From the NCBI GenBank assembly GCA_029268515.1, contig JAQWNP010000016.1, forward strand, positions 1 to 64,000: a stretch of 64,000 nt of DNA, in the 5' to 3' direction. The translations under genes were made by a program, and so were the position numbers. The stretch comes from Phycisphaerales bacterium. GTDB lineage: Bacteria; Planctomycetota; Phycisphaerae; Phycisphaerales; SM1A02. Under the pieces are notes generated by a model. It saw only the letters and a list, made by a program, of their open reading frames with translations, ran no database searches and was not told the origin of the DNA. Numbering within the stretch: position 1 is the first letter of the stretch; each line of letters starts with the position of its first letter. Below, one piece after another: positions 1-35,160 of the stretch.

Positions 1-56
1 CTAGACAGCGCTAAAACGCCAGCTGCACCAATAGTGGTAACGATAGTCTTATTCAT
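1..56 (-). CDS. N-terminus of an exported protein (cut by window edge)
   Basis: Only the first 18 codons are inside the window, reading MNKTIVTTIGAAGVLALS from the ATG at 56-54. This is a Lys-containing n-region followed by a hydrophobic stretch, so it looks like the start of a signal peptide. A purine-rich AGGGGAAAT lies about seven bases upstream of the ATG. The gene points the same way as the four sorting-signal proteins that follow and could belong to the same family, but its C-terminus, where such a tail would be, is outside the window. Confidence 0.5.
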   Translation of the reverse strand, partial: MNKTIVTTIGAAGVLALS

Positions 57-282
57 TTCTTGATTTCCCCTAGAAATTCTCTTCAAAGTTCCCCCCAGGC
101 TATTCCAACCTTCTAGTTGGCCCCAGGCACAGCCACCAAGGTAACCGACTGCCGTAACCAATTCAAGGACTTAGCCAAAGCATTTTGGCGTCAAAAGAAT
201 TGATAAATCGATCATATAGATCCAAAAATGAGCATTTTGGCTATTTTTGACACATGAGAGAGGATGAACTTTATTAAAAATA

Positions 283-342
283 GCGCCGTTTCTGCGCGTG
301 CTGTCTAAGTCACTTTTTATAAACCACTTAGACGCTTTTTTT
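283..342 (+). ncRNA. Candidate short untranslated transcript (about 60 nt)
   Basis: A possible promoter (TTGACA at 247-252, 17-base spacer, TTTATT at 270-275) is followed about 60 bases later by a perfect 8-bp hairpin and a run of seven T. No plus-strand gene lies upstream for this terminator to serve. The simplest reading is a short independent RNA, or an antisense transcript over the 5' region of the left-edge gene. The -10 element is poor, so this is a hypothesis only. Confidence 0.22.
303..342 (+). terminator. Rho-independent terminator-like hairpin (plus strand)
   Basis: GTCTAAGT (303-310) pairs perfectly with ACTTAGAC (326-333) around a 15-base loop, followed directly by GC and seven T (336-342). 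The geometry is that of an intrinsic terminator for plus-strand transcription, although no plus-strand gene precedes it in the window. Confidence 0.5.
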
Positions 343-458
343 GTGCCCCCGCAGCAGTGCTGTTGTCCGATAAATAAGAACCCTCATCGCGATCGCGAAA
401 AAGCTTAACTATGGCAATCACGAGCACTTTCATAGGAATCTCTAAAAACTGACCTGAA

Positions 459-503
459 TAAAAAAGCCAGGGGCATGCGGTCATCCGCAAGTTCCCCTGG
501 CTT
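459..503 (-). terminator. Rho-independent terminator of the 532-1308 gene
   Basis: On the minus strand, AAGCCAGGGG (503-494) pairs with CCCCTGGCTT (473-464), a 10-bp stem. It is followed by a T-rich tract (the complement of the A-run at about 460-465). It lies about 30 bases beyond the stop codon of the secreted protein gene at 532. Confidence 0.85.
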
Positions 504-531
504 CATTCGTCTAATGAGCGATTTAGATTGA

Positions 532-1308
532 TTAAGCGTCAGTGCGACGGCGGCGTCTACGACTGAGGCCAAGTCCACTTAAACCCGCGAGACCATACAT
601 AGCTGCCGCAGGCATTGGCACCAGGTAAGAAGTCACGAACTCAAGTTCGTATGAGCTCTCGCCAAAGTGTCCATGACCGTGCTTTGAACCACCAAGCGCT
701 GAAGCAAACAACTGGTATTCATGACCTGCCACCAGCATTCCAGACTCCGTTAGAGAGCCCATACCGCCACTAGTGGCAGCACTCCAATCGACAATGATCG
801 TACCGGTCGTTACATCTTCCAGGTAGCCAAAAGAATTTTCTGGGCCCATTGAGGTGTGACCAAGAGTTGATTGATAGGCAACGTTTAGTTCGAAGTTTGC
901 AGCCTCTACTGCCGTAAACGTCGTTTTCATTTGTGATCGTCCATCGGCTTCCCAGAAACCTTCATTGTCATCAGGTGATGATTCACCGCCATCAGCCCAG
1001 TAACTAAACCCACCAGCACCCAGGCCAGCTGATTCGATACCGAAACCATCCCATCCAGTCTCCTGAATCCCTACAGCATGACTGTGGCCTATGAAACCTG
1101 GATCTTGCGATTCTACAAATGACAGCCATGGATTATTACTCTCATCACCGTCGTCCCAATGGTATTGATGGCCCCAGCTACCCAACGCCGCCCATGCATC
1201 GGTAAACATATCTGCATTGGACACATGAATATTGTCCGCCAATGCAACAGAACTTAACCCGAGCATGGAAGCAGCTACGACTAACTTCACTCTCTTCTTC
1301 AGTTTCAT
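532..1308 (-). CDS. Secreted protein with VPLPA/PEP-CTERM-type sorting tail
   Basis: A 258-residue exported protein of unknown function. Residues 1-24 form a signal peptide (Lys/Arg-rich n-region, hydrophobic core, probable cleavage after ALA-24). The mature part is rich in Gly, Trp, His and acidic residues and has no cysteine. The C-terminus carries the three-part sorting signal of the PEP-CTERM/VPLPA-CTERM class: a VPMP motif near residue 230, a Gly/Leu-rich membrane stretch, and six consecutive arginines just before the end. In known systems an exosortase/archaeosortase-type transpeptidase processes such tails; none is encoded in this window. A GGGGGATC ribosome-binding-like site precedes the ATG, and a strong terminator follows, so it is probably monocistronic. 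The body matches no domain I recognise. Confidence 0.88.
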   Translation of the reverse strand: MKLKKRVKLVVAASMLGLSSVALADNIHVSNADMFTDAWAALGSWGHQYHWDDGDESNNPWLSFVESQDPGFIGHSHAVGIQETGWDGFGIESAGLGAGGFSYWADGGESSPDDNEGFWEADGRSQMKTTFTAVEAANFELNVAYQSTLGHTSMGPENSFGYLEDVTTGTIIVDWSAATSGGMGSLTESGMLVAGHEYQLFASALGGSKHGHGHFGESSYELEFVTSYLVPMPAAAMYGLAGLSGLGLSRRRRRRTDA

Positions 1309-1658
1309 GTGAGATCCCCCGACATCACTTTTTCTATTTCAACTCTTGAGATCTTTATCACAACAGTCCACATTGACTACTGCAAATGCCAACAAGGCAC
1401 TCGTCTCTTGAGCACTTCAAAAACGGCAACTCTGCTATGAGTCGCTGCCAAAAGATATACCCAAAACCATTGTTAACAAATACTTAGCACAATATTCTAG
1501 GTGCCATGCCTACTTTATTTGCACTCAGTGTCCGATAGCACAATTCACGACTGATAACCGATGTCAGTTCATTGCAATCGCTAGCAATGCGACGATCGCG
1601 CAGTAGAAAAAACGCGCCATACCGCGAGCATCAACTTTGAATTAGTTTTATAACTGGT
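1309..1658. other. Intergenic region
   Basis: This 350-base stretch separates two minus-strand secreted-protein genes. It must hold the promoter of the 532-1308 gene. Near its right end is a weak terminator-like hairpin for the 1659-2387 gene. I see no coding or RNA gene in it. Confidence 0.5.
1607..1626 (-). terminator. Weak terminator-like hairpin after the 1659 gene
   Basis: On the minus strand a 4-bp CGCG/CGCG stem (1626-1623 with 1616-1613) with a six-base loop is followed directly by six T. The stem is short, so it is only a candidate terminator for the secreted-protein gene ending at 1659. Confidence 0.35.
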
Positions 1659-2387
1659 TCAGCCTCTTCGACGGCGTGAGGATCGGAAGAACCCACCTAC
1701 GCACAGAAGACTCAATGCACCAGGCCCCGGAATAGCAGTAACGGAAAAGTCCACATTGAAACCCGTTGCGTTCAACTCACTAGAAAGACCAGCGATACCC
1801 TCAGAAAGAGCGGCGGAATTAGCTTGTAATCGATAGTTGACGCCGGCAACAAGCGATCCACTCGCAGCAAAGGGACTTAAAGCTGAATCTGAACTGTATG
1901 CTTCAATTTCTACGCCCGTATCGAGATTCTCTAACAGGACGTTGGCGAAATTACCGTTGGCTCCTTGTACAGATCCCGACAGGTCAAACAACACATTCTC
2001 GGTTGCAGTGAACTCAATGTAAAAATTGGTCAATGAGTTGCTATTCCAGGTAACAGAGCCTGTAGAGCCTACCGAAAGACCAGCAAGGGAAGCGCCCATA
2101 GAAGTAATGGAACTTCCATTCCAAGCGGTCAGCTGACTCGCAGAGGCCGACGTCTGGAAACCGCCGAGCGATGCACTGGTACTCACCATGAGGTCAAATG
2201 GATTGGTACTCAGATCGCCCGACTGACTGTCAGTATCAATAGATTGGTCCGGCCCAATTTCGGAGCTGGCGGAGATTTCGAAGGCTCCTTCGTGAAAGTT
2301 CAGAAGATCTGCAGATGTAACAGTGCTGGCCATACCCAGAACAAGCAGCCCAGTTAAACCCGATATTGTCTTTACTGATCTTCGCAA
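1659..2387 (-). CDS. Secreted protein with variant PEP-CTERM-like tail
   Basis: A 242-residue exported protein. The start is a TTG (2387-2385); it gives an Arg/Lys n-region and a signal peptide ending about TSA-26, and no ATG downstream would keep the whole signal. The mature protein is Ser/Ala/Asn-rich and low in charge. The tail (residues 219-242) begins IPGPGA, followed by a hydrophobic stretch and RRRR-G. It is therefore closer to the classic P-x-P PEP-CTERM form than to the VPLPA form of its neighbours, and it contains one Cys in the membrane stretch. The predicted body looks like a beta-rich surface protein, but I recognise no named domain. It is flanked by genes of the same type and direction. 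Confidence 0.85.
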   Translation of the reverse strand: MRRSVKTISGLTGLLVLGMASTVTSADLLNFHEGAFEISASSEIGPDQSIDTDSQSGDLSTNPFDLMVSTSASLGGFQTSASASQLTAWNGSSITSMGASLAGLSVGSTGSVTWNSNSLTNFYIEFTATENVLFDLSGSVQGANGNFANVLLENLDTGVEIEAYSSDSALSPFAASGSLVAGVNYRLQANSAALSEGIAGLSSELNATGFNVDFSVTAIPGPGALSLLCVGGFFRSSRRRRG

Positions 2388-2584
2388 CGGTCTCTTTCTC
2401 TCTCACCAAAATTGTTGGACTCCCCTGAGACCACCAATCTCTACTCCTCAGTAAACGCTGTTATTGCGCTACTCGCCCCTGTAAACAAGTGCTAAAGGCT
2501 ACCACAGTCCTCGACTAATGCGTAATTGATTACCAAAATACCGCCGGAAAAAGACGCCTTTACTAAATCTGCACATCTGGTACC

Positions 2585-2611
2585 AAATGCCCTAAATGCC
2601 CTAAATGCCCT
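2585..2611. repeat. Three tandem copies of a 9-bp unit
   Basis: AAATGCCCT occurs three times head to tail at 2585, 2594 and 2603. It lies about 200 bases upstream of the 1659-2387 gene's start and just beyond the terminator of the next gene. It could be simple slippage or a clustered protein-binding site. Confidence 0.85.
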
Positions 2612-2664
2612 ATTTTGACGTCATAAGGACCCATATGAACTTCTAAGACCTTTCTTTGGGCCAC

Positions 2665-2689
2665 AAAAAACCCAGGCCATAGGCCTGGG
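2665..2689 (-). terminator. Rho-independent terminator of the 2730 gene
   Basis: CCCAGGCC (2671-2678) and GGCCTGGG (2682-2689) form a perfect 8-bp stem with a 3-base loop. On the minus strand it is followed by six T (2670-2665). It lies about 40 bases past the stop codon of the gene ending at 2730. Confidence 0.9.
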
Positions 2690-2729
2690 GAAGATTGGGC
2701 TGGGATTTTTCTAAGTCTCAATAGCGTTT

Positions 2730-3479
2730 TTACCGGCGGCGGCGGCTGATCATCAATCCACCTAGACCTGCGAGACCCATAAAACCTGCTGCTGGCAGTG
2801 GGATCACCGTGCCTGCTACAAAGCTCAAGTCAAACGATGCGAGGCCAGTTGTCGTCGAGTTGCCAGCAAAGGCATCAGTACCAGAACTATTGAGAAGACT
2901 CGAAGCTGAGGTCGTGAGAACAAAAGAGTCACCAGCGGTGATTGATCCAGTAAACGTGAAGGTTGCAGATCCGGCAGCTTGGGAGCCGGACCATTCATGA
3001 AGGATCGCACCTGTCGATTGAAGACTAAAGTTGCCGCTGACCTGATCAGTACTAACAATATAATTTAGAGCAGTAATAGCAATGGTCAGTTGGTAGCTGG
3101 TCGTTTCCAAAGCCGTAAAAACTGCAGACACCGTTGATTTAGCGTCAGCATTGAACTCTTCTTTGATATCGTTTGAAACGCTTGTATTGTTTGTATACGA
3201 AGATTGGAAACTGTTTCCATTCCATGAGGTATTGCCTGTACCCATGGCTTGGACTGCACCCGAACTATTACTTAGCTCTGCGTTAGCGCTCCCTGACCAT
3301 GGGTTGTTACCCACATCGCCGGTTGCATCAGCATCAGTATTGAAAGGGTCCAAATATGCCAAGGCATCAATGCTGTTACTGACTGTCGTAATATCAATTG
3401 CATCCGCTTGAACAAAGCTACAGACTGCTATAGGTGTCGCAGCGGCGATGACCAATAAGTTATTGTGAAACACGCTCAT
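2730..3479 (-). CDS. Secreted protein with VPLPA-CTERM-type sorting tail
   Basis: A 249-residue exported protein. I start it at the ATG at 3479 because GGGGAG lies eight bases upstream; a longer reading from 3509 adds an unlikely Arg-rich leader. The signal peptide ends near VQA-25. The mature part is Ser/Thr/Asn-rich and almost free of basic residues, as in exported beta-sandwich proteins. Residues 225-249 are the sorting tail: VIPLPAAGF, a Gly/Leu-rich membrane segment, then RRRR at the very end. A strong terminator follows, so it is probably transcribed alone. The function of the body is unknown; the tail resembles that of the genes at 532 and 3823. Confidence 0.88.
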   Translation of the reverse strand: MSVFHNNLLVIAAATPIAVCSFVQADAIDITTVSNSIDALAYLDPFNTDADATGDVGNNPWSGSANAELSNSSGAVQAMGTGNTSWNGNSFQSSYTNNTSVSNDIKEEFNADAKSTVSAVFTALETTSYQLTIAITALNYIVSTDQVSGNFSLQSTGAILHEWSGSQAAGSATFTFTGSITAGDSFVLTTSASSLLNSSGTDAFAGNSTTTGLASFDLSFVAGTVIPLPAAGFMGLAGLGGLMISRRRR

Positions 3480-3822
3480 CTTTCTAACTCCCCGGGTTAA
3501 GGACCTCACCCTACGTCAGTTAAAGACGGATATCGGGTGAGGACCAAGGGAGCTAGTCTAGTAGAACTGTGGACAGAACCACAAGCCTCTAGGTAACAAT
3601 GATTTACTCAAAGACAGTTAAGGTTGTTGTTATCGGACAATCCCTTGCCCTTGAACTACGTATATCACCTAGAACGGCAACGTCTAGATCCTCACAATGA
3701 GATCTATAAGGGCTGTTTTTCTGTTAAAAAAGGACGCCTGGACCCCCCAAAGAACGGCCCAGGCGTTGATGCGAGGCAATTGATTTGTCTCGTATTTTTG
3801 TCTGTCCCCAAGTGGGTTTGAA
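3480..3822. other. Intergenic region
   Basis: This 343-base gap holds the upstream region of the 2730-3479 gene and, at 3726-3766, the terminator of the gene at 3823. I found no convincing coding sequence in it. Confidence 0.5.
3726..3766 (-). terminator. Rho-independent terminator of the 3823 gene
   Basis: On the minus strand ACGCCTGG (3766-3759) pairs with CCAGGCGT (3741-3734) across a C/G-rich 17-base loop. It is followed by CC and a run of six T (3731-3726). It lies about 55 bases past the stop codon of the secreted protein gene. Confidence 0.8.
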
Positions 3823-4578
3823 TCAGGCCAAGCGGCGCCGGCGTGGGCAGCCAATAACCCCTCCAAGACCCAAGAGACCAGCCAGTGCCGCTGAGGGCAG
3901 TGGAACCATCGTCGAATAGGCTTCGAGGCCGAAAATGTAGTCTGCCTTTCCGACGATATTTTCACGGCGATCGTTACCGAACGTAGCGCCAGCTCCAGCT
4001 GTTAGTTCAATCGCAATTTCATCACCTGCTTGAAAGCTCCAAGTGTTTTGGTAACTACTACCATCACTTGCATAAGACCAGCTCGCTAGGCTAGCGCCAT
4101 TGAGGTCAATATCGCCAGTCACAGAATTGGAAATTCCAGTATCTCCACTGGTCGCAAACATCGACATACTGATCGATATAGACATATTTGAAGCAGCTGT
4201 AAACGTAAATAAACTTCCGGTAGAGGCGTAGGCAAAACCAGGCGCTTCGCCACCTTCTGAGAAGAGCATTTCACCCTTCACAGCGCTACTCTGGTTGTAA
4301 TAATTCGAACCCCATTCAGCACCCAGTTCGTACTGAGCACGCGCTTCACTGCTCCCTTGTTGGTCTTCACCGCCATTACTGAAACTAAATGGATTGTCGG
4401 GGGGGTTGTTGTTCGTAACCCCACCTTGCGGATTGTCGCCGATTTGCCACTCCGCTACACCGTTACCGTCATACGAATCAAAAGTGATTGGATCGGCATG
4501 AACAAAGCCAACAACCGTGAATGTCAGACCAGTCACTAGCGCCACCGCGGTCTTGTTAATATTTTTTATCCTAGACAT
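3823..4578 (-). CDS. Secreted protein with VPLPA-CTERM-type sorting tail
   Basis: A 251-residue exported protein. The ATG at 4578 is chosen because GGGGAGG lies about ten bases upstream and the resulting n-region (SRIKNINK) opens a good signal peptide ending at VHA-28. The longer in-frame reading to 4695 would bury the signal. The body is rich in Gly, Asn, Ser and Gln and strongly acidic. The tail at 225-251 reads VPLPSAALAG, a Gly/Leu membrane stretch with one Cys, then RRRRLA. It is the most upstream member of a same-strand row of proteins sharing this tail. I recognise no catalytic domain. Confidence 0.88.
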   Translation of the reverse strand: MSRIKNINKTAVALVTGLTFTVVGFVHADPITFDSYDGNGVAEWQIGDNPQGGVTNNNPPDNPFSFSNGGEDQQGSSEARAQYELGAEWGSNYYNQSSAVKGEMLFSEGGEAPGFAYASTGSLFTFTAASNMSISISMSMFATSGDTGISNSVTGDIDLNGASLASWSYASDGSSYQNTWSFQAGDEIAIELTAGAGATFGNDRRENIVGKADYIFGLEAYSTMVPLPSAALAGLLGLGGVIGCPRRRRLA

Positions 4579-24364: not shown

Positions 24365-25234
24365 TTACAGGTCTTTGTCTCTGTGTTGCATCTGCGCTTT
24401 AAGTCTTGCCAGAATTGATGAGTGCATTTGGCTTACACGTGACTCAGAGAGATCCAGTGTTGTGCCAATCTCTTTCATCGTCATTTCTTCGTAGTAGTAC
24501 AAGACAACAATCAAACGCTCGGCTCGGGAGAGCCCTTTGGTGAGCAGCAATTTCAGATCGCCCCGCTGTAATTCTGACAGCGGATTATTTTGCCGCTTGT
24601 CCTTGATCACATCGATCTCACGAACGTCTTTACTGGAATCCGTCTCAAACCATTTGCGGTTCAGTGACACCACACCAACTGGCGACGAGTCTCGAGAGAG
24701 CTTCTGAAATTCGTTTTGATCAATCTCCATCGACCCACAGATTTCGTCTTCGGTTGGCTTGCGGCCCAGCCTCATCTCCAGCGACTTGCGGGCTCGATCA
24801 ACTTTTGCGGTACGAGATCGAACCAATCGGGGTACCCAATCCATAGCGCGTAGCTCATCAAAGATGGCGCCGCGAATACGTTGGGCACAATAGGTCTCGA
24901 ATTTCACTCCGCGTTCAAGATCGTAGGCGTCAATTGCATCCATCAAACCAAAAACGCCAGAAGACATCAGGTCATCGACGTCTACTTCTGCAGGCAAGCG
25001 CATATGCATACGCTCAGCTGTATAGCGCACAATCTCAAGATAGTTCTGTATGAGAAAAGAACGAATCTCGGTTGCATTGGTTTTCTTGTATTCACGCCAT
25101 ACGTCTTGTATGGGTTGTTCCGAAAGCGATGTACCAGATACACCAGTACGTTTTGCTCTCGACTTTTTATTGCGTCGAGCGTTGCTTGCAGCGCCGCTTG
25201 ATCGCCTTGCCTCTGGGGGCTTCGTCTTCGGCAT
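24365..25234 (-). CDS. fliA: Flagellar RNA polymerase sigma factor FliA (sigma-28 type)
   Basis: A 289-residue sigma factor. The start at 25234 is chosen because AAGGAGA lies about seven bases upstream; a longer frame to 25282 has no such site. The N-terminus is an unusual Lys/Arg-rich extension (PKTKPPEARRSSGAASNARRNKKSRAKRTG). Region 2 follows (YLEIVRYTAERMHMRLPAEVDVDDLMSSG, FETYCAQRIRGAIFDELR), then region 3 and region 4 (LSRAERLIVVLYYYEEMTMKEIG, DLSESRVSQMHSSIL). FliA directs RNA polymerase to late flagellar promoters. It is the last gene of the flagellar cluster. Confidence 0.93.
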   Translation of the reverse strand: MPKTKPPEARRSSGAASNARRNKKSRAKRTGVSGTSLSEQPIQDVWREYKKTNATEIRSFLIQNYLEIVRYTAERMHMRLPAEVDVDDLMSSGVFGLMDAIDAYDLERGVKFETYCAQRIRGAIFDELRAMDWVPRLVRSRTAKVDRARKSLEMRLGRKPTEDEICGSMEIDQNEFQKLSRDSSPVGVVSLNRKWFETDSSKDVREIDVIKDKRQNNPLSELQRGDLKLLLTKGLSRAERLIVVLYYYEEMTMKEIGTTLDLSESRVSQMHSSILARLKAQMQHRDKDL

Positions 25235-25379
25235 TGGCCGTCTCCTTGACCACTGGCAGTCCTTGCCAACCCGTCGATCCATGACGGGCGTGTGTTAGTG
25301 ACTATACCGCAATTGTAACACTTCGCTCAAGTAGAAAGCCACTCACGTCAGATTGACGGGCTTCCAAATAGTTCGTTTG

Positions 25380-25697
25380 TCACAATGGCGCGGGGATCTT
25401 TTCGTCCTCAGCCACCCCTGAAGACACCTGAATTTCCTCCTTTGAAGACGCTTCTGAAGAGTCGCCAAAATGCTCCTGATCAATATCAGCAGGTGCGTCA
25501 CTATCGCTACTCAATAGCATCGTTCGCGCAACCCCACTGCCAACAAGCCAACCTAATCCATAACAGACAATCAATACGATCAAAGACCTAACAAGCACTG
25601 TTAATGGTGGATTATCAACGATCAAGCCGGATACCATTGCAACTGCAAACGCCGTTAAGGCAAAGCATGTGGCAACAACTTGGGAAATACCGCTCAC
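25380..25697 (-). CDS. Small two-helix membrane protein between flhG and fliA
   Basis: A 105-residue protein with two predicted membrane helices (about residues 5-27 and 33-58) and an acidic, Ser/Glu-rich tail of about 45 residues likely to face the cytoplasm. It is encoded in line with the flagellar genes, with gaps of about 100 bases to flhG and 145 to fliA. I recognise no family. Its place in the cluster suggests a role in flagellar assembly, placement or sigma control, but nothing in the sequence proves that. Confidence 0.65.
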   Translation of the reverse strand: MSGISQVVATCFALTAFAVAMVSGLIVDNPPLTVLVRSLIVLIVCYGLGWLVGSGVARTMLLSSDSDAPADIDQEHFGDSSEASSKEEIQVSSGVAEDEKIPAPL

Positions 25698-25801
25698 GCT
25701 GAACTTTCTCCGCTAAAGGGCAGAGGCCCCACCCTAGTAATGCCAGAAACGCGCTGACAGAGGCCCAGAAAGTCAAACAATGACTCTTTTTTCCTCGCCA
25801 C

Positions 25802-26851
25802 CTAATCTGATCGAGCCGCTGACCGCCACTTCTGGAATTTTCTTTTTTCTCGACTGGAACCCATTCGGCCTGCCAGTCGAGAAAAGAACCCCCCCTCAAC
25901 CTCGAATGCCGCAGAACGATCGAGTCCAATCAAACCTCGACCGACCGCCACGATGGCCCGTGCGGCAAGTCCATCTGGTTCCGTAAGCATAAAAGGGACA
26001 CGCTCTTTGACTGCATTGATCACTGCTGTATCACGTGGAATCACACCACCCAATGCAATTTCTCGCCGCAAGAAGGTCCGGCAGACACGATTGATTCGCT
26101 CATAGACATCTCGGCCCTCCTCCCATGAGTCGGCCATATTCACTGCCAATTCAATCTGCGCATTTGGCATGGATTCACAAAGTGATTTGATCATGCCGTA
26201 CGCATCAGTGATTGCTGTCGGCTCAGGTGTTGTCACGACGAGCGTGGTATGCGCCGCAGCAGCGAAGTCAACTACGTTGGCACCAATACCAGCGCCAATA
26301 TCAATAAGTAATACATCAGCTGAGCGGTCTAACACCGATAACTGTTCCAACAAACGATGACGCGCCATTGGCCCCAGATCAGCAACGCCTGCCACACCAG
26401 ACGCACCAGGGATGAGTCGAAAACCGCCTGGCGCCGCAACCATTGCATCAACCAGACGTGCTCGACCAGAAATCACATGTTCCAATGTCACGTTTGGTGT
26501 GAGGTTACAAAGCACATCCGCATTTGCCATACCGAGATCTGCATCAAGTACACAGACTCTTAATCCAAACTGGCTGAGCGCAACAGCAAGATTAATAGAG
26601 ATGTTGCTTTTACCAACACCACCTTTACCAGAACAGACGGCCACTGCATGGGCCAGACGAATCGATTGCTTTTGCTGTTTGACTGCAGACGGGCCCAAAC
26701 TGACAAAGGCAGCGCTTTCCCGCCTTGCTGCTGAGCCGCTATCTTCAGTAGACCGCTCTAGCACACGAACCCCTCCCATAGTGCCGACAGCACCGCCAGT
26801 TTCACCGGCGGACTGTACGAGCGAACGTAGGTTCGATGCTTGATCATGCAT
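25802..26851 (-). CDS. flhG: Flagellar number/placement ATPase FlhG (MinD-like)
   Basis: A 349-residue SIMIBI ATPase of the MinD/ParA branch. The deviant Walker A reads SGKGGVGKS (residues 74-82), followed by VLDADLGMANADVL (switch region) and LLIDIGAGIGANVVDF. An extra 65 residues precede the P-loop; in FlhG/FleN relatives the short N-terminal motif activates the partner GTPase FlhF. It usually limits flagellar number. The first codon overlaps the flhF stop by eight bases (ATGCATGA). The C-terminal part ends in a basic stretch rather than a clear amphipathic MinD-type membrane helix. Confidence 0.93.
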   Translation of the reverse strand: MHDQASNLRSLVQSAGETGGAVGTMGGVRVLERSTEDSGSAARRESAAFVSLGPSAVKQQKQSIRLAHAVAVCSGKGGVGKSNISINLAVALSQFGLRVCVLDADLGMANADVLCNLTPNVTLEHVISGRARLVDAMVAAPGGFRLIPGASGVAGVADLGPMARHRLLEQLSVLDRSADVLLIDIGAGIGANVVDFAAAAHTTLVVTTPEPTAITDAYGMIKSLCESMPNAQIELAVNMADSWEEGRDVYERINRVCRTFLRREIALGGVIPRDTAVINAVKERVPFMLTEPDGLAARAIVAVGRGLIGLDRSAAFEVEGGFFSRLAGRMGSSREKRKFQKWRSAARSD

Positions 26852-28322
26852 TGACGAGAGAACCCTCCATTACAAGTTCAGCTAAGCGGCTCGCAGATCC
26901 CGGTTCGATGTGATCCGGAACCTCCTGGCCAGTAGTCATAAAGCTCAGAGTAGCACCAACCTGGCGAATTACATTCACTAACATGCCAAAACTCACCGCC
27001 TCATCGAGCTTTGTGAGCACAATTCGGTCAATACCAACTGGGGAGAAGGCCTCAGCCTCCCGCATCAGGACGCGCTGCCCTGCTGTACCGGATAGAACCA
27101 GATGCACTTCATCTGGATCTGCTGCTGTAATCATCTCTCGAAGCTCAGCCAATTTATCCTTGTCGTTTTGGCTTCTCCCAGCCGTATCCACCAAGATCAG
27201 CTCGCATCCGCGGAGGGCGTGAATTGCTTGCTTCATATCAGCAGGCGTCAATGCGACCTCTAACGGCAGACCAATGATATTGGCATAGGTTCGCAGCTGG
27301 TCAACGGCGGCGATTCGATAGGTATCAGCAGTGATGAGGCCAACAGAATGCCTTCCGTGAAGCTTGCAAGCGGCGGCGAGCTTGGCCACCGTTGTTGTTT
27401 TTCCGACACCTGTGGGACCAACCAAGACAATCACCCGAGGCTCACCCGGCCGGCCAACCTGGAGCCTCACATCCTCACCGACTGGGATTAAGGCTGCGAG
27501 ATGCTCCTGAATCGATGCCCGCACAACTTCTTCTTGACCGATCTCATCTCCGCTGAGTTCACCAGCAACTGTCATTAAAACTTCCTCAGCAAGCTGATCC
27601 GATAGATCCTGCGAGACGAGGTGAAGGTAGTGCTCAAAGAGTTCTTCAGGTAGTTTCGTCGGTGCCGCATGAATATTCTCTTGGCGATCCAGCACTGTTG
27701 AAACCATTGACTTTATTGACTCAAGCTCTTGCTGCATCGAGTGGCTCACTCTGTCTGCCGCATCATCGACTGAATCTTCCACCGAGTTCGCGTCACCAGC
27801 AGCCTTGCTCGTTACCCCTGATAACTCCTGTTGGGGCTGGAGCATGAAACGCTGCGGTGATCCAGGCAAACGAGACTGCTGCCGACAAGCAACTGCTTGT
27901 ACAACCTGACTAGAACTTTTTTGCTGAAGACCGATCACAGGCGCCTCTGCACCTCGCTGAGGCGGCGTAGCAAGAGACTCCGGGACCGGCATCGTATTTG
28001 GCGTCATTGCGATTGAGAGTCGCTCACGAGCCTTGCCTGGCTCTCTACTGGCCGAATAGGCGCGCCCCGCCATGGACTGAGACACAGTCGCTGTCTTAGC
28101 CGCCGGTGGCTTTGGCGAGGGAGTTGGCTTGGGTCGCTCTTTGGAAGCCGCTGGAGTCTTGGGCAACTGGGCAGTGACCTCAACCACTTGACGCCCACCG
28201 ATACCCATAAATCCACCGCGTCGATAGCTTCGCGTTGTGGTAATGACTGCCTTTCCACCGAGATCAGCTTGCACTGCGGCAAGTGCCTGGGTCATTGAAT
28301 AGGCTCTATAGATCTTCTTCAC
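26844..28322 (-). CDS. flhF: Flagellar placement GTPase FlhF (SRP family)
   Basis: A GTPase of the signal-recognition-particle family that marks where flagella are built. I put the start at the GTG at 28322, giving about 492 residues and an N-terminus MKKIYRAYSMTQALAAVQ like other FlhF proteins, with CAGGAG about nine bases upstream. Longer readings reach 28346 or 28382. The N-terminal B domain (to about residue 180, Pro/Ala/Gln-rich) is followed by the NG domain with P-loop VGPTGVGKTTTVAKLAA, DTYRIAAVDQLRTYA, VDTAGRSQNDK and LTKLDEAVSFG. Together with FlhG it sits between flhA and fliA, the usual order. Confidence 0.93.
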   Translation of the reverse strand: MKKIYRAYSMTQALAAVQADLGGKAVITTTRSYRRGGFMGIGGRQVVEVTAQLPKTPAASKERPKPTPSPKPPAAKTATVSQSMAGRAYSASREPGKARERLSIAMTPNTMPVPESLATPPQRGAEAPVIGLQQKSSSQVVQAVACRQQSRLPGSPQRFMLQPQQELSGVTSKAAGDANSVEDSVDDAADRVSHSMQQELESIKSMVSTVLDRQENIHAAPTKLPEELFEHYLHLVSQDLSDQLAEEVLMTVAGELSGDEIGQEEVVRASIQEHLAALIPVGEDVRLQVGRPGEPRVIVLVGPTGVGKTTTVAKLAAACKLHGRHSVGLITADTYRIAAVDQLRTYANIIGLPLEVALTPADMKQAIHALRGCELILVDTAGRSQNDKDKLAELREMITAADPDEVHLVLSGTAGQRVLMREAEAFSPVGIDRIVLTKLDEAVSFGMLVNVIRQVGATLSFMTTGQEVPDHIEPGSASRLAELVMEGSLVNA

Positions 28323-28374
28323 TACATCGATCTCCTGATTTTCCATGGGGCTGCACTGGAACAGCCCATCCAAT

Positions 28375-30549
28375 CTACGCAACGTCTACAGCTGCTCCCG
28401 CCTGGTTGGGCGTAGCCGTTTCAGCGGCTGCCACTTGAACGAGACCAAATGATTCAACATCAAGTCCTTTAACAATTTCGTTGTACGCTAAAACTGATGA
28501 CCCGGGAAGGTGGGCATCAAGTATTTGCTTGACCTGTGCGCGAACAGCTGGTGATGCCAACACAATTAATTGGTGTCCATCTCGCACAAGGGACTCACTG
28601 GCTTCATAAACACTTCGAGCAATCGCAGCCGCAAGTGCAGGCGGCATATTGAGCGATGTGCCCGCATTACTTCGATCTATATACCCACCGATTTGCTCTT
28701 CAAGGGAAGGATCCATCGTGACCACAAACAAACGAGCCTTTCCTTCTGCATCAACTTCTGCCCATTGAGCGGAGATCGTGCGCCGCAGTGCATGGCGGGC
28801 ATACTCTGTGAGGACCACAATATCCTTGGTTTGGGGCGCCCAGTCTGCCAGGGTCTCCACAATTGTCTCAAGGTCGCGTATTGGAACGCGCTCTTGCAAC
28901 AATCCTTGAAGCACTTTCTGAAGCTGACTGGTTGTGACAACCGCTGGCACCGCCTCTTCAACGAGCTTTGGAGTTCTTTTCCGTAGCTGATCTAAAAGAT
29001 GATTAACTTCTTCTCGACTCAGTAGTTCATCCGCATGTGCCTTCACCAACTCCGTGACATGGGTTGCCATGACACTGGTGGGATCAACAACGGTGTAGCC
29101 AAGCATCTCTGCCCGCGGCTTGGCTTGTGGCTCAATCCAAATCGCAGGCAAACCAAATGCTGGCTCGCGTTCACTGATGCCGTCAATGGCGCCAGTTGTG
29201 ACACCAGAATCCATCGCCATCAAGAGATTGGGATACGCTGTCCCTTCTCCAATCTCCGCACCACGAAGTTTCACTCGGTACAGATTTGGTCCCAACTGCA
29301 TATTGTCCCGAATACGAATCGGCGGCATAACAATGCCAAGTTCAACCGCCAACTGACGCCGTACCATTGAGATACGGTCGAGCAAATCTCCGCCAGAAGC
29401 CGCATCAACCATCGGAACAAGTCCATAGCCAATTTCAACTTCAAGCGGATCGACATCCAGCAGCATCTCCACTTTTTCCTCAGTCGCACTCTGATCGGAG
29501 ACGGCCTCAGAAACATTGGCCTCAATTTCTTGTTGTTTGGTACCACGCCACTGCAGATAACCAATGCTCGCAAGCAATCCAGATGCCACCAGCAATGGGA
29601 ACGATGGCAAAGGAGTAAACGCAAGCAACGCAAGAAAGCCCGACACCATGAACAGTGCCACCGGCTGACTCGTCAGCTGCTCGGGAATCGCATCACCAAG
29701 ACGCTGACGCTCGCCACTTCGGGCAACAATCAGTCCAGCAGCAACTGCGATAATGAAAGATGGTATTTGGCTCGCCAAGCCATCACCAATGGTCAATTTC
29801 GTGAAAACATCAACAGAGGCGCCAAAGGACCAGCCCTTGTAAAACATTCCAATTGCAAAACCACCCAGAATATTAACCAGCGTGATGATGATGCCCGCAA
29901 TTGCGTCACCACGAACAAACTTACTGGCACCATCCATCGCACCATAGAAGTCTGCTTCACGCATGATTGTCGTACGCCGCAAACGTGCTTCTTTCTCATC
30001 GATCAACCCAGCTGAAAGATCTGCGTCAATAGCCATTTGTTTGCCAGGCATTGCATCGAGCGTGAACCTTGCGGCGACTTCACTCATGCGCGTCGCACCT
30101 TTGGTAATGACCACAAACTGCACAATGATCAGTATCAGGAAAATAATGACACCAACCACCAAAGAAGATCCAGCAACAAACGTGCCGAAAGCCTCAATCA
30201 CTTCACCTGCAACGCCAGCTGCTTCGGCTGGCGTCGTGGCGTCCGCAGAAAGAATGAGTCGCGTTGAAGCAATGTTGAGCACTAACCTGAAGAGCGTTGT
30301 GCCGAGTAAAAGAGCGGGAAAGACACTGAATTCGAGCGGCTCGCTCATGTAGACCGTAGTCAGCAAGATAATGGCCGCCAATGAGATATTGAATGACAGA
30401 AGGACATCGAGCATGAACGGCGGCATTGGTACTACCAAAACCGCCACTAAACCAAGAATGGCCAATGGAACTAAGAAGTGCTTGTATTGAATCACCACAG
30501 CCAGAAAAACTGTCAGCGGAGATGATGATTTACGAACTAGATCCTGCAT
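28375..30549 (-). CDS. flhA: Flagellar biosynthesis protein FlhA
   Basis: A 724-residue core export-gate subunit. The N-terminal half holds about eight membrane helices and the FHIPEP signature (TKGATRMSEVAARFTLDAMPGKQMAIDADLSAG). The C-terminal half is the cytoplasmic ring domain that receives chaperone-substrate complexes (VDPTSVMATHVTELV, LSREEVNHLLDQL, LEQIGGYIDRS). The length matches the family. It lies 21 bases downstream of flhB. Confidence 0.97.
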   Translation of the reverse strand: MQDLVRKSSSPLTVFLAVVIQYKHFLVPLAILGLVAVLVVPMPPFMLDVLLSFNISLAAIILLTTVYMSEPLEFSVFPALLLGTTLFRLVLNIASTRLILSADATTPAEAAGVAGEVIEAFGTFVAGSSLVVGVIIFLILIIVQFVVITKGATRMSEVAARFTLDAMPGKQMAIDADLSAGLIDEKEARLRRTTIMREADFYGAMDGASKFVRGDAIAGIIITLVNILGGFAIGMFYKGWSFGASVDVFTKLTIGDGLASQIPSFIIAVAAGLIVARSGERQRLGDAIPEQLTSQPVALFMVSGFLALLAFTPLPSFPLLVASGLLASIGYLQWRGTKQQEIEANVSEAVSDQSATEEKVEMLLDVDPLEVEIGYGLVPMVDAASGGDLLDRISMVRRQLAVELGIVMPPIRIRDNMQLGPNLYRVKLRGAEIGEGTAYPNLLMAMDSGVTTGAIDGISEREPAFGLPAIWIEPQAKPRAEMLGYTVVDPTSVMATHVTELVKAHADELLSREEVNHLLDQLRKRTPKLVEEAVPAVVTTSQLQKVLQGLLQERVPIRDLETIVETLADWAPQTKDIVVLTEYARHALRRTISAQWAEVDAEGKARLFVVTMDPSLEEQIGGYIDRSNAGTSLNMPPALAAAIARSVYEASESLVRDGHQLIVLASPAVRAQVKQILDAHLPGSSVLAYNEIVKGLDVESFGLVQVAAAETATPNQAGAAVDVA

Positions 30550-30570
30550 GTTGACTTGTTACGCGCCTTG

Positions 30571-31641
30571 CTATCCCGCCATTCGTCCCTGTAATCGATA
30601 GACATAGGCCAGAATCTCGGCCACAGTCTGAAAAAATGATTCTGGTATTTCCTCACCAACCTCAACCTCGCGATACAGCGCTCTTGCCAGTGGCTTACGC
30701 TCCACAATGGGGATGTTGTGCTCGGTCGCAATTGCTCGAATTCGCATGGCCATAAAATCAGCACCTTTAGCGAGCACCCGTGGCGCCTCCATGTTGGTGC
30801 TGTCATATGACAAGGCAATCGAAATGTGTTCTGGATTCGTGACAATGACATCCGCTTTTGGAACCGCTGCACTGATTCGATGCATTGCAATCTGCTGTTG
30901 TATTCTCATTCGTCGGCGCTTTGTCTCAGGATCACCGTCAGTTTGCTTAAGCTCATCTTTGACCTGTTGTTTGGTCATTCGCAGATCACGGCGGTTCTTC
31001 CATCGCTGATAGATAAAGTCCAGAATTCCCAACAGAAAAAGTACTGCCAACATACGCAATGCCGTATCAAGCAGTAACCAACCGGTCGCCGCAGCTGCTA
31101 CGAGAACGCCATGCTGAGGCAATGCCAAAATCTCTGGTGCATGATCCCATGCAGCCCAAATGGCGACCAGCATCACGAATAGCACCTTGAATGAATCAAG
31201 GCCTGCTTTTACGATCGCATTGATGCCATAAATTCGTTTGGCACCACTGATTGGATTAAGCTTTTCTATCTTTGGGACCAGCGCTTTACTCGAAAAGATA
31301 AAACCAAATTGACCGATATGAGAAACAAGTGCTGCCACGACTGCCACGACTAATACAGGGACCAAAACTTTGACAGTTGCCTGCCCCATCGCAGCCACAA
31401 GATGACTCGTTTGCTTCGAATCAATCATGATGCCTAAGGTTTCAGGTGATAGTGCATGCCTAATCATGACTCCAGCTGTTTCTAGCATTGGCATTGCTGC
31501 CAATGCCAACGCCAAAGTCATGGCTGCTAAGAGCACCGCGCTAGAAAAATCTTGGCTTCGGGCAACCTGGCCTTCTTTCCTTGCTTCACTCAGCCGACGC
31601 GCCGTTGGCTGTTCTGTTTTTTCGCCTAGATCTTCCGACAT
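30571..31641 (-). CDS. flhB: Flagellar export switch protein FlhB
   Basis: A 356-residue protein with four membrane helices and a cytoplasmic C-terminal domain that self-cleaves to switch export specificity. The cleavage motif reads NPEH with Asn-269 and Pro-270; the standard motif is NPTH, so Glu replaces Thr at the third place. Other family marks are EKTEQPTARRLSEARKEGQVARS at the N-terminus and the RDLRMTKQQVKDELKQTDGDP linker. It is flanked by fliR and flhA with 6- and 21-base gaps. Confidence 0.96.
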   Translation of the reverse strand: MSEDLGEKTEQPTARRLSEARKEGQVARSQDFSSAVLLAAMTLALALAAMPMLETAGVMIRHALSPETLGIMIDSKQTSHLVAAMGQATVKVLVPVLVVAVVAALVSHIGQFGFIFSSKALVPKIEKLNPISGAKRIYGINAIVKAGLDSFKVLFVMLVAIWAAWDHAPEILALPQHGVLVAAAATGWLLLDTALRMLAVLFLLGILDFIYQRWKNRRDLRMTKQQVKDELKQTDGDPETKRRRMRIQQQIAMHRISAAVPKADVIVTNPEHISIALSYDSTNMEAPRVLAKGADFMAMRIRAIATEHNIPIVERKPLARALYREVEVGEEIPESFFQTVAEILAYVYRLQGRMAG

Positions 31642-31647
31642 TCGAAG

Positions 31648-32424
31648 CTACTGTCCCTTCACCCAAGTCATAAGCGTACCCAACATGGAGTTCATCCCAT
31701 CAAGGATGACCTCATCAATCACAACAAGACCTGCAATCAGAATGACGAGACCAATCAGAATTCTTAATGGAAATCCCAGGCTCAAAATGTTCAGTTGCGG
31801 CACCGTCTTGGCCACAAATCCCATGGCGATACTCTGTAGAAAGATGATCGCCAGAACCGGCGCCGCAATCCTGAGAGCCATTTCGCACGCTGCCAATAAG
31901 AGTGACAGGATCACGGCGATCGTCTCCTCGCCGAGCGTGAAGGTGCCAATTGGAATGTGCTGAAAGGTCTGTAATAGACAGTACACAATCGCGTCGAGCC
32001 CACCGATCATGAGGAAGCCTGCGAGCGCCATAAAGAACAAAATCTGGCCCAATAGATCGGCGTCCGAATCTGAGGCTGGATTGTAAAAACTCACGAAGCC
32101 CAGCCCCATCTGTTGCCCCATGAGTAATCCGCCCATCTGCACTCCGACAAATGGCAGGCTTGCAAAAAACCCAATCAGCAGACCAATCATCATCTCCAGT
32201 GCGATCAGGGGTGCCAGCGACCAAAGGTTCAACTGGAAGGCGCCCATACTGACCGGACCCGTGCTCACAATCCCGTAAATGGCGAGCCCTAGAACCACTG
32301 CAAGCAGCGCCTTGAACTTCACTGGAATGAGGTTCGAACCAAGAACTGGCGCAAACATCATGAGTCCTCCGATTCGGAAGATCACAAGAAGTGCGGCGGG
32401 AATGTGCGGTGCAATCGCTTGCAA
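31648..32424 (-). CDS. fliR: Flagellar biosynthetic protein FliR
   Basis: A 258-residue export-gate membrane protein with about six helices. It shows the FliR segment GLLMGQQMGLGFVSFYNPASDSDADLLGQ. The start is a TTG at 32424, with AAGGA about eight bases upstream. It follows fliQ by 42 bases and precedes flhB by six. Confidence 0.93.
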   Translation of the reverse strand: MQAIAPHIPAALLVIFRIGGLMMFAPVLGSNLIPVKFKALLAVVLGLAIYGIVSTGPVSMGAFQLNLWSLAPLIALEMMIGLLIGFFASLPFVGVQMGGLLMGQQMGLGFVSFYNPASDSDADLLGQILFFMALAGFLMIGGLDAIVYCLLQTFQHIPIGTFTLGEETIAVILSLLLAACEMALRIAAPVLAIIFLQSIAMGFVAKTVPQLNILSLGFPLRILIGLVILIAGLVVIDEVILDGMNSMLGTLMTWVKGQ

Positions 32425-32466
32425 TGAAATCAGTCCTTAAGCTCGACATCGTTAAACCCTCTCATG

Positions 32467-32718
32467 TCAAAACCACACAAACATGTCAATTGCGAAGTCA
32501 GTCATTTTCACAGTCAACCAACCAAGAATCGCCACCGCCACCAAGACCATGGCAACAATTTTGGGCACGAAGCTCAGAGTCTGCTCCTGCACTTGTGTCA
32601 CGGCCTGCAACAAACTAATTATTAAGCCAACAATCAAACCAGCCCCAAGAATTGGCGCAGCGATCAGTAGCGAAAGCATGAATGCTTGCCTGACAATATC
32701 AACTGCATCAGCTTCCAT
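32467..32718 (-). CDS. fliQ: Flagellar biosynthetic protein FliQ
   Basis: An 83-residue two-helix export-gate protein (family length about 89). I start it at the ATG at 32718 because AGGAGGT lies seven bases upstream; a longer frame to 32790 would overlap fliP and add a basic leader. The sequence reads MEADAVDIVRQAFMLSLLIAAP and then LLQAVTQVQEQTLSFVPKIV, the family signature. It lies ten bases downstream of fliP. Confidence 0.96.
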   Translation of the reverse strand: MEADAVDIVRQAFMLSLLIAAPILGAGLIVGLIISLLQAVTQVQEQTLSFVPKIVAMVLVAVAILGWLTVKMTDFAIDMFVWF

Positions 32719-32728
32719 ACGAAACCTC

Positions 32729-33625
32729 CTACGGGCCACTACCAAAGATCTGCCCGGTGACATCCACAGGACCTTCACCCTGAGCCACACTTGCCAACAG
32801 TGAACCAGCTACAAGCGCCCATCCATCGACCAACACAAACAACAACAACTTAAACGGCAATGAAATCAAAACTGGGGGCAACATCAACATGCCCATGGAG
32901 ATCAAAATGCTCGCAATGACCATGTCAATGACAAGGAACGGCAGAAAAACTCGAAATCCAATCAAGAACGCCGTCTTCAACTCACTAAGCACATAAGCAG
33001 GTATCAACGCGATCATGTCTACATCACTGCGCTTCAGTTCTTCTGGCGAAGAAGTATCTACACCGCGGTAGTTGAGAATCATGTAGAGACTTGACCAGTT
33101 CCCGGTCGCTTCTAATTGTCCAAACATGAAGTCTCGAAGCGGTTGCTTGGTTCGATTCCATGCAACCTCATAATTTGTTTCTTTGCCTTCTGCATAAGGC
33201 TGAATACCTTCAACGTACATCCGCTCAAGTGTCGGAGTCATGATCACCAAGGTGAGAAAGAGACTCAGACCAACCACCACCTGACTTGGTGGCATCCCTT
33301 GTGTCCCCAATGCCTGACGCAGCAATCCAAAAACAATGACGAGACGAATAAAACAAGTACAGAGAATCAATATTGACGGAACTAACGCAAGAACCGTTAA
33401 CAACAACATGATGTTAAGTACGGCACTCAGTCGCCCATCTGTACCTGGAATGGCGTTTGCAACATCCTGCAAAACAGTCAGTGGGTTGGGATTATTTAGT
33501 GCACCGGGATCTGTTTGTGAGATCTGAACGACATTGGCTTGTTGTGCTGTAAGTGAGGATGTAAATAATGCAATCGCACCACAGCAGATAAGCAATGAAA
33601 GAAAATGCCATCGACGAAGGGTCAT
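32729..33625 (-). CDS. fliP: Flagellar biosynthetic protein FliP
   Basis: A 298-residue export-gate protein with a cleavable signal peptide (to about residue 30) and four membrane helices. Family marks are FIRLVIVFGLLRQALGTQGMPPSQVVVGLSLFLTL and LIPAYVLSELKTAFLIGFRVFLPFLVIDMVIASILISMGM. Its start overlaps the fliO stop by four bases (ATGA). With FliQ and FliR it forms the membrane pore for flagellar protein export. Confidence 0.97.
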   Translation of the reverse strand: MTLRRWHFLSLLICCGAIALFTSSLTAQQANVVQISQTDPGALNNPNPLTVLQDVANAIPGTDGRLSAVLNIMLLLTVLALVPSILILCTCFIRLVIVFGLLRQALGTQGMPPSQVVVGLSLFLTLVIMTPTLERMYVEGIQPYAEGKETNYEVAWNRTKQPLRDFMFGQLEATGNWSSLYMILNYRGVDTSSPEELKRSDVDMIALIPAYVLSELKTAFLIGFRVFLPFLVIDMVIASILISMGMLMLPPVLISLPFKLLLFVLVDGWALVAGSLLASVAQGEGPVDVTGQIFGSGP

Positions 33626-34539
33626 CTTCTAGCCTCCCCACCACGAGAAGAACCAGCGGACCCGCCCTTTTTAAGATTGATCTTTGCGGCGCGGGTCAAG
33701 TCAACTAACTCACTACCATCCACACCCGTCTCACGGCGTGGCGCGCGTGATAAAACCGACTGGACATCCTGACCGCTTGCCACGACATCTCCAGAATTCG
33801 CCGCTTCAACAGCGTCCCAGGGATCATCTTGCATCTCCTTTAAGACGCTTGAGAACTGATCGCCTGATGTATTGGATCGCTTGGCGGAGAATATTCGCTT
33901 CAGCGCGGCCCCCGGCTTTTTTCCACCCCGAACACCATGCCCTGCCTCAACACGAGTCAGCAATGACGCGACTTCATCAGGATCAACTACCTCAGCTAAT
34001 GATTGCATGCCCATGGGCGTCTGATGCACCAAAACGATACGACGCCCGAGTTTCAGGAGCACCATCGATTGTTTTCGCCCTGTCGGGAAACGCCCTAAGA
34101 CCTCAAGTACACCAGACGGCCGTCGACCACCCAACGATCCAACTCCAGATGCAGCGCCCATGCGACGTAAAACGGCACGCAAAAGCAGGATCAGAGCCAG
34201 TACACCACCGAGCGCAAGAAGAACGCGGACCACCTCATTTTGAGTTGGATCGTAAGAGTCAACAGCAGGCGTATCGCCATCAGCACCAGAAGCAATACCA
34301 AGTGCCCTACTTTTCTGAGGATGCCCTAATGGAAGTTGCTCAATTTTGGCCACTGGCAACGCTGTTGCTTGTGCAACCTCAGCCTCGGGCACTGATAGCT
34401 GGACCGGCACCGAAACAGGATTATTGGCTTCTAGAAGTGGAGGCTGCTGAACGCCCAAGGCCAGACCACTTAACGAGCAGATGCCCGCAATTGCGAGCAT
34501 TACAGCGCCCAAATGTCCTCTGACCCGTGCGGTCATCAT
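33622..34539 (-). CDS. fliO: FliO-like flagellar assembly protein
   Basis: A 305-residue protein, longer than typical FliO (about 120-230). An N-terminal signal/membrane segment (residues 10-30) is followed by about 65 periplasm-facing residues, a single membrane helix (VVRVLLALGGVLALILLLRAVLRRM, near 105-130) and the cytoplasmic FliO domain (LEVLGRFPTGRKQSMVLLKLGRRIVLVHQTP). A long Ser/Gly/Lys-rich tail follows. FliO helps assemble the FliP ring. Its position directly before fliP supports the call. Confidence 0.85.
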   Translation of the reverse strand: MMTARVRGHLGAVMLAIAGICSLSGLALGVQQPPLLEANNPVSVPVQLSVPEAEVAQATALPVAKIEQLPLGHPQKSRALGIASGADGDTPAVDSYDPTQNEVVRVLLALGGVLALILLLRAVLRRMGAASGVGSLGGRRPSGVLEVLGRFPTGRKQSMVLLKLGRRIVLVHQTPMGMQSLAEVVDPDEVASLLTRVEAGHGVRGGKKPGAALKRIFSAKRSNTSGDQFSSVLKEMQDDPWDAVEAANSGDVVASGQDVQSVLSRAPRRETGVDGSELVDLTRAAKINLKKGGSAGSSRGGEARR

Positions 34540-34629
34540 GCCGTCCCTGGCTATTTCGGTTCCGAATCCATCCGGAACCAGTACTGACTTCTACGCTGAT
34601 GCCTAAAAAACACCAGTCCATCTCACTTC

Positions 34630-35160
34630 TTACCTGTTGCTATGGCCTTCCTCGACAATCTCGCCAATTCTCACACAAAGCGTCTCATCAACTACTAATA
34701 CTTCACCACGGGCAACCAGCTGTCCATTGACTCGAATATCAACAGGGTCACCAGCTGGCCTTTCTAGCTCTATCACTGAGTCCGCGTTAAGACGAAGCAC
34801 GTCCTGCACGTACATTCGCGTCCGACCAAGTTCGATTCGAACATCAAGCTCAACGTCATCGAGCCGATCAAGTCCAGCACCCGAAGTTCCATTGAACTGA
34901 GACCCGCCATTGAGGGCTGTCTTAGGGTGCGATGAATGTTCGAATTCTGGCATGTCTAACCCCGTCGGCACCGCTGAAGAATTGAGCGGATCCTGTGAGG
35001 TCGATGCCACCTTTTCTGCTGCTTTCGACACCTGCTTTAGCGCATCATCAGCATCCGGAACCGTAGGTGGCATCTCGGCAGACGGAATTGGTGGTGTCTT
35101 GGGTTGCTCGTGCGGCTGATGTGACTGCGGCGTGAAGCCCTGATCTGCTTGGTCGGCCAT
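34630..35160 (-). CDS. fliN: Flagellar motor switch protein FliN
   Basis: A C-ring protein of about 176 residues. The start at 35160 is preferred because GGAG lies about eight bases upstream; a reading to 35268 has no ribosome-binding site. The first 90 residues are Pro/Gln/Ser-rich and disordered. The C-terminal 80 form the SpoA domain (VELDVRIELGRTRMYVQDVL, then DPVDIRVNGQLVARGEVLVVDETLCVRIGEI). FliM and FliG are not in the window. Confidence 0.93.
   Translation of the reverse strand: MADQADQGFTPQSHQPHEQPKTPPIPSAEMPPTVPDADDALKQVSKAAEKVASTSQDPLNSSAVPTGLDMPEFEHSSHPKTALNGGSQFNGTSGAGLDRLDDVELDVRIELGRTRMYVQDVLRLNADSVIELERPAGDPVDIRVNGQLVARGEVLVVDETLCVRIGEIVEEGHSNR

Follow-up and report, generated by a model that had tools for sequence, protein, structure and literature searches.

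The window analysed here is a stretch of 64,000 nucleotides from a Phycisphaerales bacterium (GenBank assembly GCA_029268515.1), namely bases 1-64000 of contig C16 (JAQWNP010000016.1; 329,648 bases) in a genome of 3.2 Mb and 20 contigs. At its left end lies an array of five genes for proteins that combine a signal-peptide-like start with a C-terminal sorting-type tail. We found that the bodies of these proteins are diverged paralogues of one family, and that the tail class of four of them, PLP, co-occurs in related genomes with X1, one of two exosortases encoded in polymer loci of the window's genome, and is linked to it. Sorting of the exosortase type as such is very likely, and we think it probable that the array serves mainly as cargo for X1, which would be the main enzyme for PLP tails. 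Below, G000 denotes the window's own genome, G001 a sister species of the same genus, and Cn the contigs.

Four genes of the array are complete on the minus strand within 532-4578, as a preliminary description of this DNA had stated, and the fifth crosses the window's left edge. Gene 1 (3823..4578; 251 amino acids, aa) encodes a signal peptide (..VHA|DPI), a body and the tail MVPLPSAALAGLLGLGGVIGCPRRRRLA of the PLP class. Gene 2 (2730..3479; 249 aa), with the PLP-class tail VIPLPAAGFMGLAGLGGLMISRRRR, was taken to start at the ATG at 3479, where the list of open reading frames (ORFs) had the GTG at 3509. Gene 3 (1659..2387; 242 aa, TTG start) ends in AIPGPGALSLLCVGGFFRSSRRRRG, which scores with the second main class, PAPGA, and gene 4 (532..1308; 258 aa) in LVPMPAAAMYGLAGLSGLGLSRRRRRRTDA, which has the motif PMP and scores with the PLP class. 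The 5' end of gene 5 (1..57, minus strand) starts with MNKTIVTTIGAAGVLALS. C16 ends at the left edge of the window, and its first 141 bases are the exact reverse complement of the first 141 of C17, a match that occurs once in the genome. We read it as an assembly overlap that joins the contigs and completes gene 5 (241 aa) at C17:86-811, with the tail LIPLPAAGFMGLAGIGGLAFTRRRRDDA and a terminator behind it; the cut gene that had been offered as a possible member is thus a real one. The intergenic gaps measure 343, 342, 350 and 474 bases. A signal-peptide-like start was recognised in every array protein by a simple home-made rule, with the ending A|D in the four complete in the window, and every C-terminus consists of P-x-P, a hydrophobic stretch and an Arg tail, so the anatomy described earlier for the four complete genes extends to gene 5.

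The bodies, in contrast, had been described as unrelated, which proved wrong. We defined the body as the protein minus signal and tail and compared six members, genes 1-5 and C10:370230; gene 5 and C10:370230 were recovered as further full-length members by a profile from the four full array proteins. In leave-one-out searches with hidden Markov models, a profile of five bodies was searched for the sixth, with 200 shuffled sequences and 10 bodies of other tail proteins as controls. Results showed E values of 1.7e-7 (gene 1), 4.2e-18 (gene 2), 1.6e-14 (gene 3), 2.6e-16 (gene 4), 7.5e-14 (gene 5) and 6.4e-21 (C10:370230), against 0.0069 for the best control in all six runs. The alignments share NPW/NPF, a conserved W, FT and G-x-L-x-AG. 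Identity was 15-27% in the pairs displayed, and gene 1, the most diverged body, gave no significant match to the other bodies in a single-sequence search. The kinship escaped the eye because comparisons of single sequences often fail to reach significance, most of all with gene 1.

Members of the body family turned up in 4 of 61 genomes, with six copies in G000, four in G001 and, weakly, two in G013 and one in G024. The order of genes 2-3-4 is kept in the sister species (G001:C86), where the orthologues are 67, 46 and 57% identical, the last over 203 residues and interrupted by the contig end, and other matches in the comparison reach 25-32%. The duplications therefore predate the split of the two species. 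The sister copy of gene 3 (L133, G001:C86 about 900-1080) has the tail VPGPGALGLLCMAGVFRSRRRRA, in which PGPGALGLLC is kept, in a different frame from the body, possibly through a frameshift or an assembly error. Three distant family members, L064 (G024:C144), L065 (G013:C3) and L068 (G013:C9), end in D-x-D-x-D-G repeats and carry no sorting tail; the repeats of L064 scored 22.4 bits on Dockerin_1, slightly under the cut-off of 22.9.

Two AlphaFold2 models were of low confidence (mean predicted local distance difference test 54.3 and 49.3; predicted template modelling (TM) score 0.55 and 0.56), and both were all beta, except that the tail of the first forms a short helix. The best structural match of the first model was VIA (Bdellovibrio Bd1399; Z 8.8, 139 residues, 3.9 Å), followed by GH31 enzyme domains and CBM51 (Z about 7), and in Foldseek it reached a TM score of at most 0.3 on the query. 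Since this model aligns just weakly, and to many sandwich proteins, no fold family is claimed. A search of the body profile against sequences of solved structures gave no match at E ≤ 1. The body is probably a beta-sandwich, and our best guess at its role would be a matrix or adhesion protein in a polymer layer.

Loci read in the window's own genome encode 16 complete tail proteins, plus one on C18 that is truncated where its contig ends. By the same kind of home-made rule, 14 of the 16 had a signal-like start, compared with 3 of 21 control genes, under a laxer rule for the tail proteins (any Met within the first 130 residues) than for the controls (first 45 residues). The tail proteins therefore look exported, in line with the preliminary description. 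Two main tail classes were distinguished, and a profile was built from each. Genes 1, 2, 4 and 5 and C10:370230 form the PLP class (48-53 bits on their own profile and at most 12 on the PAPGA profile), and seven proteins form the PAPGA class (44-54 bits versus at most 12 on PLP), scores that are high by construction for the sequences used in building a profile. On the PLP and PAPGA profiles, respectively, gene 1 scored 48.1 and 11.7, gene 2 53.1 and -2.4, and gene 4 50.9 and 4.9; the cut protein on C18 reached 49.6 on PAPGA. Gene 3, used in neither profile, scored 0.3 on PLP and 23.0 on PAPGA while carrying a body of the array family, and the same mix of body and tail was seen in a G001 family member (L147; 8.3 versus 21.6). 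Two LPVPSA tails (C10 at 302 and 305 kb) and one more (C8:72b) fitted both classes poorly. Among curated models, VPLPA-CTERM (TIGR03370, cut-off 25.35) was passed by gene 5 with 26.2 bits, gene 2 remained below it with 16.2, and no match was listed for genes 1, 3 and 4. PEP-CTERM TIGR02595 (cut-off 16) was listed for no array protein, and PF07589 (cut-off 20.7) was not reached by gene 2 (12.0) or gene 5 (13.8), with no match listed for the other array proteins. Genes 1-4 thus fall below all curated sorting-domain cut-offs tried.

A search of the genome, which could have refuted the sorting idea of the preliminary description, did not do so: it revealed two exosortases, with 154.9 and 141.4 bits on PF09721 (cut-off 25.7). 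X1 (C16:144282-145151, 290 aa) lies on the window's contig, 140 kb off, and X2 (C1:14680-16497, 606 aa) on another; both stand outside the window, from which an exosortase had been reported absent, and both belong to exopolysaccharide loci. The X1 locus runs X1, an EpsI-like DUF3485 protein, AAA_31, a bacterial sugar transferase, a 1425-aa TPR protein and a sugar epimerase/dehydratase. Around X2 are a 1692-aa TPR protein, an AAA_31 match slightly under cut-off, a family-4 glycosyltransferase and a polysaccharide-export protein, and the C-terminal part of X2 is weakly EpsI-like (NF045609, 20.8 bits, far under cut-off). The conserved exosortase Cys, Arg and His residues, described in the part of PMC1569441 consulted, were recognised by eye in the translations as EACNGMR, NIIRL and DFHD in X1 and EACSGMR, NILRV and DFHS in X2. 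X1 passed TIGR02602 (112.3 bits; cut-off 105.55), and X2, slightly under it at 104.2, passed TIGR04178. Neither reached a cut-off among the lettered exosortase types listed, and both lay far below that of XrtD (TIGR04152; X1 106.5, X2 153.9, cut-off 400). An exosortase was found in all 61 genomes searched. A copy of X1 56% identical to that of the window's genome (L176, SMWF01000135.1) occurs in a metagenome-assembled genome titled Gammaproteobacteria, which may be a mislabelled bin or a case of transfer, and a second, distant exosortase-type match (43.9 bits) was seen at G030:C71 (L257), in a genome without X1.

The 37 genomes of the window's bacterial family provide a natural test, as X1 is present in 17 (at least 180 bits) and lacking in 20 (below 73 bits), and X2 and the PAPGA profile matched in all 37. 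The X1-positive calls include a partial match in G033 (residues 169-290) and one split over contigs in G004. PLP-type tails were detected in 10 of the 17 X1-positive genomes and 1 of the 20 others (Fisher p 6.7e-4), counting matches at E ≤ 0.01 and only the best locus or loci per genome, which had to score better on the PLP than on the PAPGA profile. Matches in G014 and G030 were dropped for a better score on the PAPGA profile, two genomes with PLP tails found only near X1 (G007, G013) were not counted, and a broader PLP profile (A6) that also matches PAPGA tails was left out. The association held without the window's genome, the source of the profile (9/16 versus 1/20, p 1.7e-3), and without its genus (8/15 versus 1/20, p 1.9e-3). 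On the X2 tree, X1 presence required about 10 changes (mean of the shuffles 12.4; 55 of the 500 needed as few); X1 is therefore scattered and not the heritage of one clade.

Tail genes were also linked to X1 in position. Of 35 X1-positive genomes, 17 had an ORF with a P[LVIM]P tail no more than 15 kb from X1, and none of 20 X2 loci had one as close to X2 (p 1.3e-4), with unequal coverage of 5-31 kb around X1 and 14-31 kb around X2; strict PLP tails were near X1 in 15 of the 35. The X1 set required a match of at least 173 bits, which excluded G038 (123.5 bits), and of the two matches in G060 one was used; the X2 loci came from 20 of the 61 genomes. Because genomes of the same genus are not independent (g37 and g39 supply four positives each), we also counted by genus (X1 11/28, X2 0/18; p 0.003); within the family only, the figures were 6/17 and 0/13 (p 0.024). 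One of the linkage matches, in G045, may be spurious. An earlier count had given 11/20 X1 and 1/20 X2 loci, the X2 match looking out-of-frame; the tail rule was tightened after this count had been seen, and the X1 set was then enlarged to all 35 genomes. Seven X1 stretches had initially been chosen for a known tail match, extra stretches of G013 and G027 came from the A6 profile, and the other X1-positive genomes were added later. No PAPGA or other tail class was found near the 17 family X1 loci, and PAPGA is the commoner class in the family genomes. Tandem runs of three to five PLP/PVP/PIP genes were observed 9-18 kb from X1 in G027 (C25:20280-24206, L259), G047 (C17, L119), G039 (C34, L271) and G043 (C47, L125 and L293), and a run of nine genes, chiefly with PTP tails, in G054 (C2:93-102 kb, L118). 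Within the window's bacterial family, a QDQLVVVP-like lead-in is shared by several of these tails (G007, G009, G010, G015, G027).

The model we favour treats the five genes as an ancient tandem family whose members encode one kind of exported surface or matrix protein, probably a beta-sandwich. The signal peptide would export each protein and the tail would hold it in the inner membrane; an exosortase would cut at or near P-x-P, and the protein would be released or attached to the exopolysaccharide layer. X1, a patchily distributed second exosortase that has an EpsI-like partner and sugar-polymer genes of its own, would read the four PLP tails, and the ubiquitous X2 the commoner PAPGA tails, to which gene 3 with its array body may have been rerouted. 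Of the earlier proposal that the tails mark cargo of one sorting enzyme, the exosortase-type cargo stands; the single enzyme does not fit two exosortases and two differently distributed tail classes, and the cargoes are not unrelated.

Several observations weigh against X1 as the main enzyme for PLP tails. G024 has a PLP tail and no X1 was found in its assembly, which is 93% complete, and 7 of the 17 X1-positive genomes gave no PLP-scored match in the genome-wide search. With the curated TIGR03370 at E ≤ 0.05 the contrast was weaker (7/17 versus 2/20, p 0.052). The two X1-negative matches were a VPAPA tail and one that is not a C-terminal tail; G030, which lacks X1, scored above the cut-off of this model with the tail VPAPASVAIL. 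A phylogeny-corrected test had three usable independent pairs on well-supported branches and thus no power. A 30 kb scan around X1 in the window's own genome found no tail gene up to 15 kb away. When all tail classes were counted, linkage was 20/35 for X1 and 1/20 for X2; outside the family the tails near X1 include PEP (G053, G057) and PTP/PAP (G054), and at L179, an X1 locus that did not enter the count, a PAPGA tail stands next to a PLP tail. By NCBIfam score, moreover, X2 is nearer than X1 to XrtD, the named VPLPA partner (154 versus 107 bits). Other tails also accompany PLP near X1 outside the family, PAP in G037 and G042 and PEP in G056. Linkage thus indicates that X1 loci have their own cargo, which in most of them is of the PLP type, and does not show X1 to be bound to PLP everywhere.

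Some of these points would be expected if all tails were processed by a single promiscuous enzyme, X2, or by both exosortases equally, the PLP and PAPGA classes being drift and the PLP genes near X1 passengers of the polymer locus. The universality of X2 in the family, its closeness to XrtD, the combined body and tail classes of gene 3, the PLP tail of G024 and the further classes near X1 outside the family all agree with this explanation. It appears unlikely to us, since PLP tails track X1 (10/17 versus 1/20) and cluster near X1 and not X2 (17/35 versus 0/20), and since X1 is not a single-clade heritage. The tails might instead be plain membrane anchors that hold the proteins in the inner membrane with no exosortase cut, as the sub-threshold scores of genes 1-4 and the predicted nature of the cleavage would allow; the tripartite tail, the exosortases in all 61 genomes, the linkage of tails to X1 and the passing score of gene 5 on VPLPA-CTERM fit a sorting system and make this improbable. 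Unrelated cargoes united by the shared tail alone, the view taken in the preliminary description, could explain the low body identity and the isolation of gene 1 in single-sequence searches, yet the leave-one-out profiles recovered every body at E ≤ 1.7e-7, and we regard this view as very improbable. With X1 still preferred as the main enzyme for PLP tails, we raise tentatively a further idea, that two orthogonal exosortase pathways, with separate tail codes and polymer loci, might operate in the same cell, and that members of the array family switched pathway when their tails were replaced (gene 3, L147). If so, tail identity would determine which polymer layer a protein enters.

The array genes appear to be transcribed separately. 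Terminators, consisting of a hairpin and a T run, follow four of the five genes: gene 1 at 3720..3765 (RNA fold -22.5 kcal/mol, z -3.54), gene 2 at 2660..2693 (-16.4 kcal/mol, z -2.52; a pattern scan agreed) and gene 4 at 460..510 (-29.3 kcal/mol, z -6.27), all on the minus strand, and gene 5 on the C17 side (L019:852-888; -11.1 kcal/mol, z -3.34). For gene 3 the folding test gave no terminator (z 0.17). RNA folding thus bore out the strong terminators noted before for three of the four complete genes, and as most copies end in their own terminator, separate transcription is likely, as had been suggested. According to the portion of Haft 2006 (PMC1569441) consulted, PEP-CTERM genes mostly form units of one gene behind a long upstream region; the array layout agrees with this, so genes each in their own unit are expected for this kind. 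No common upstream motif emerged: among the six upstream regions no 9-mer or 10-mer was present in at least three, one 8-mer was, and blastn gave no match. Sites resembling the sigma-54 consensus numbered 65 across the window, where chance would give 46.9 and none of 100 shuffles reached as many. One of them (2585-2570, two mismatches) falls in the gap ahead of gene 3; on the array strand, none was found ahead of the remaining genes. Because the sites are scattered through the window and only the gap of gene 3 was hit, they were not counted as evidence.

Among known systems, the array most resembles PEP-CTERM/exosortase (EpsH), as presented in the consulted part of PMC1569441, in its signal peptide, its tail of P-x-P, hydrophobic stretch and basic residues, the exosortase in an exopolysaccharide locus, the mostly single-gene units and the long upstream gaps. 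It differs in that the motif is PLP (or PAPGA) instead of PEP, that there are two exosortases and the tail classes differ in distribution, that the cargoes are tandem paralogues, and that no clear sigma-54 site was recognised upstream. VPLPA-CTERM/XrtD is alike in that gene 5 passes its tail model, whereas X1 and X2 are not XrtD by cut-off and the array tails go with X1, the less XrtD-like of the two. GlyGly-CTERM/rhombosortase (PMC3237569) offers, in the portion consulted, a precedent for a swappable tail suffix on one family and for targets beside the enzyme, the adjacency being described there chiefly where there is a single target; exosortase belongs to another superfamily, and several-gene runs of PLP type lie 9-15 kb from X1 in some genomes.

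In the literature examined here, as far as its consulted parts go, exosortase-tail assignments are inferred from co-occurrence. The family adds a set of related genomes in which tail class goes with X1 and one paralogue set bears both tails, and it suggests that a VPLPA-type tail may pair with an exosortase other than XrtD; tail names alone should therefore not be used to infer the enzyme in these bacteria. A literature search of titles and abstract beginnings turned up no paper on pairing of X1 with PLP tails, on two exosortases, or on exosortase combined with VPLPA. In texts with both exosortase and Phycisphaer, the word occurs in reference lists only, and VPLPA-CTERM appeared, in the searched portions, in a denitrifying-reactor study. 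Elsewhere in the window, by eye in the translations, a flagellar block occupies 24365-37513 (sigma factor, FlhG/FlhF/FlhA/FlhB/FliR/FliP, MotB/MotA-like), and 54237-58406 encodes a SecA-like protein that, at 1389 aa, exceeds the usual length.

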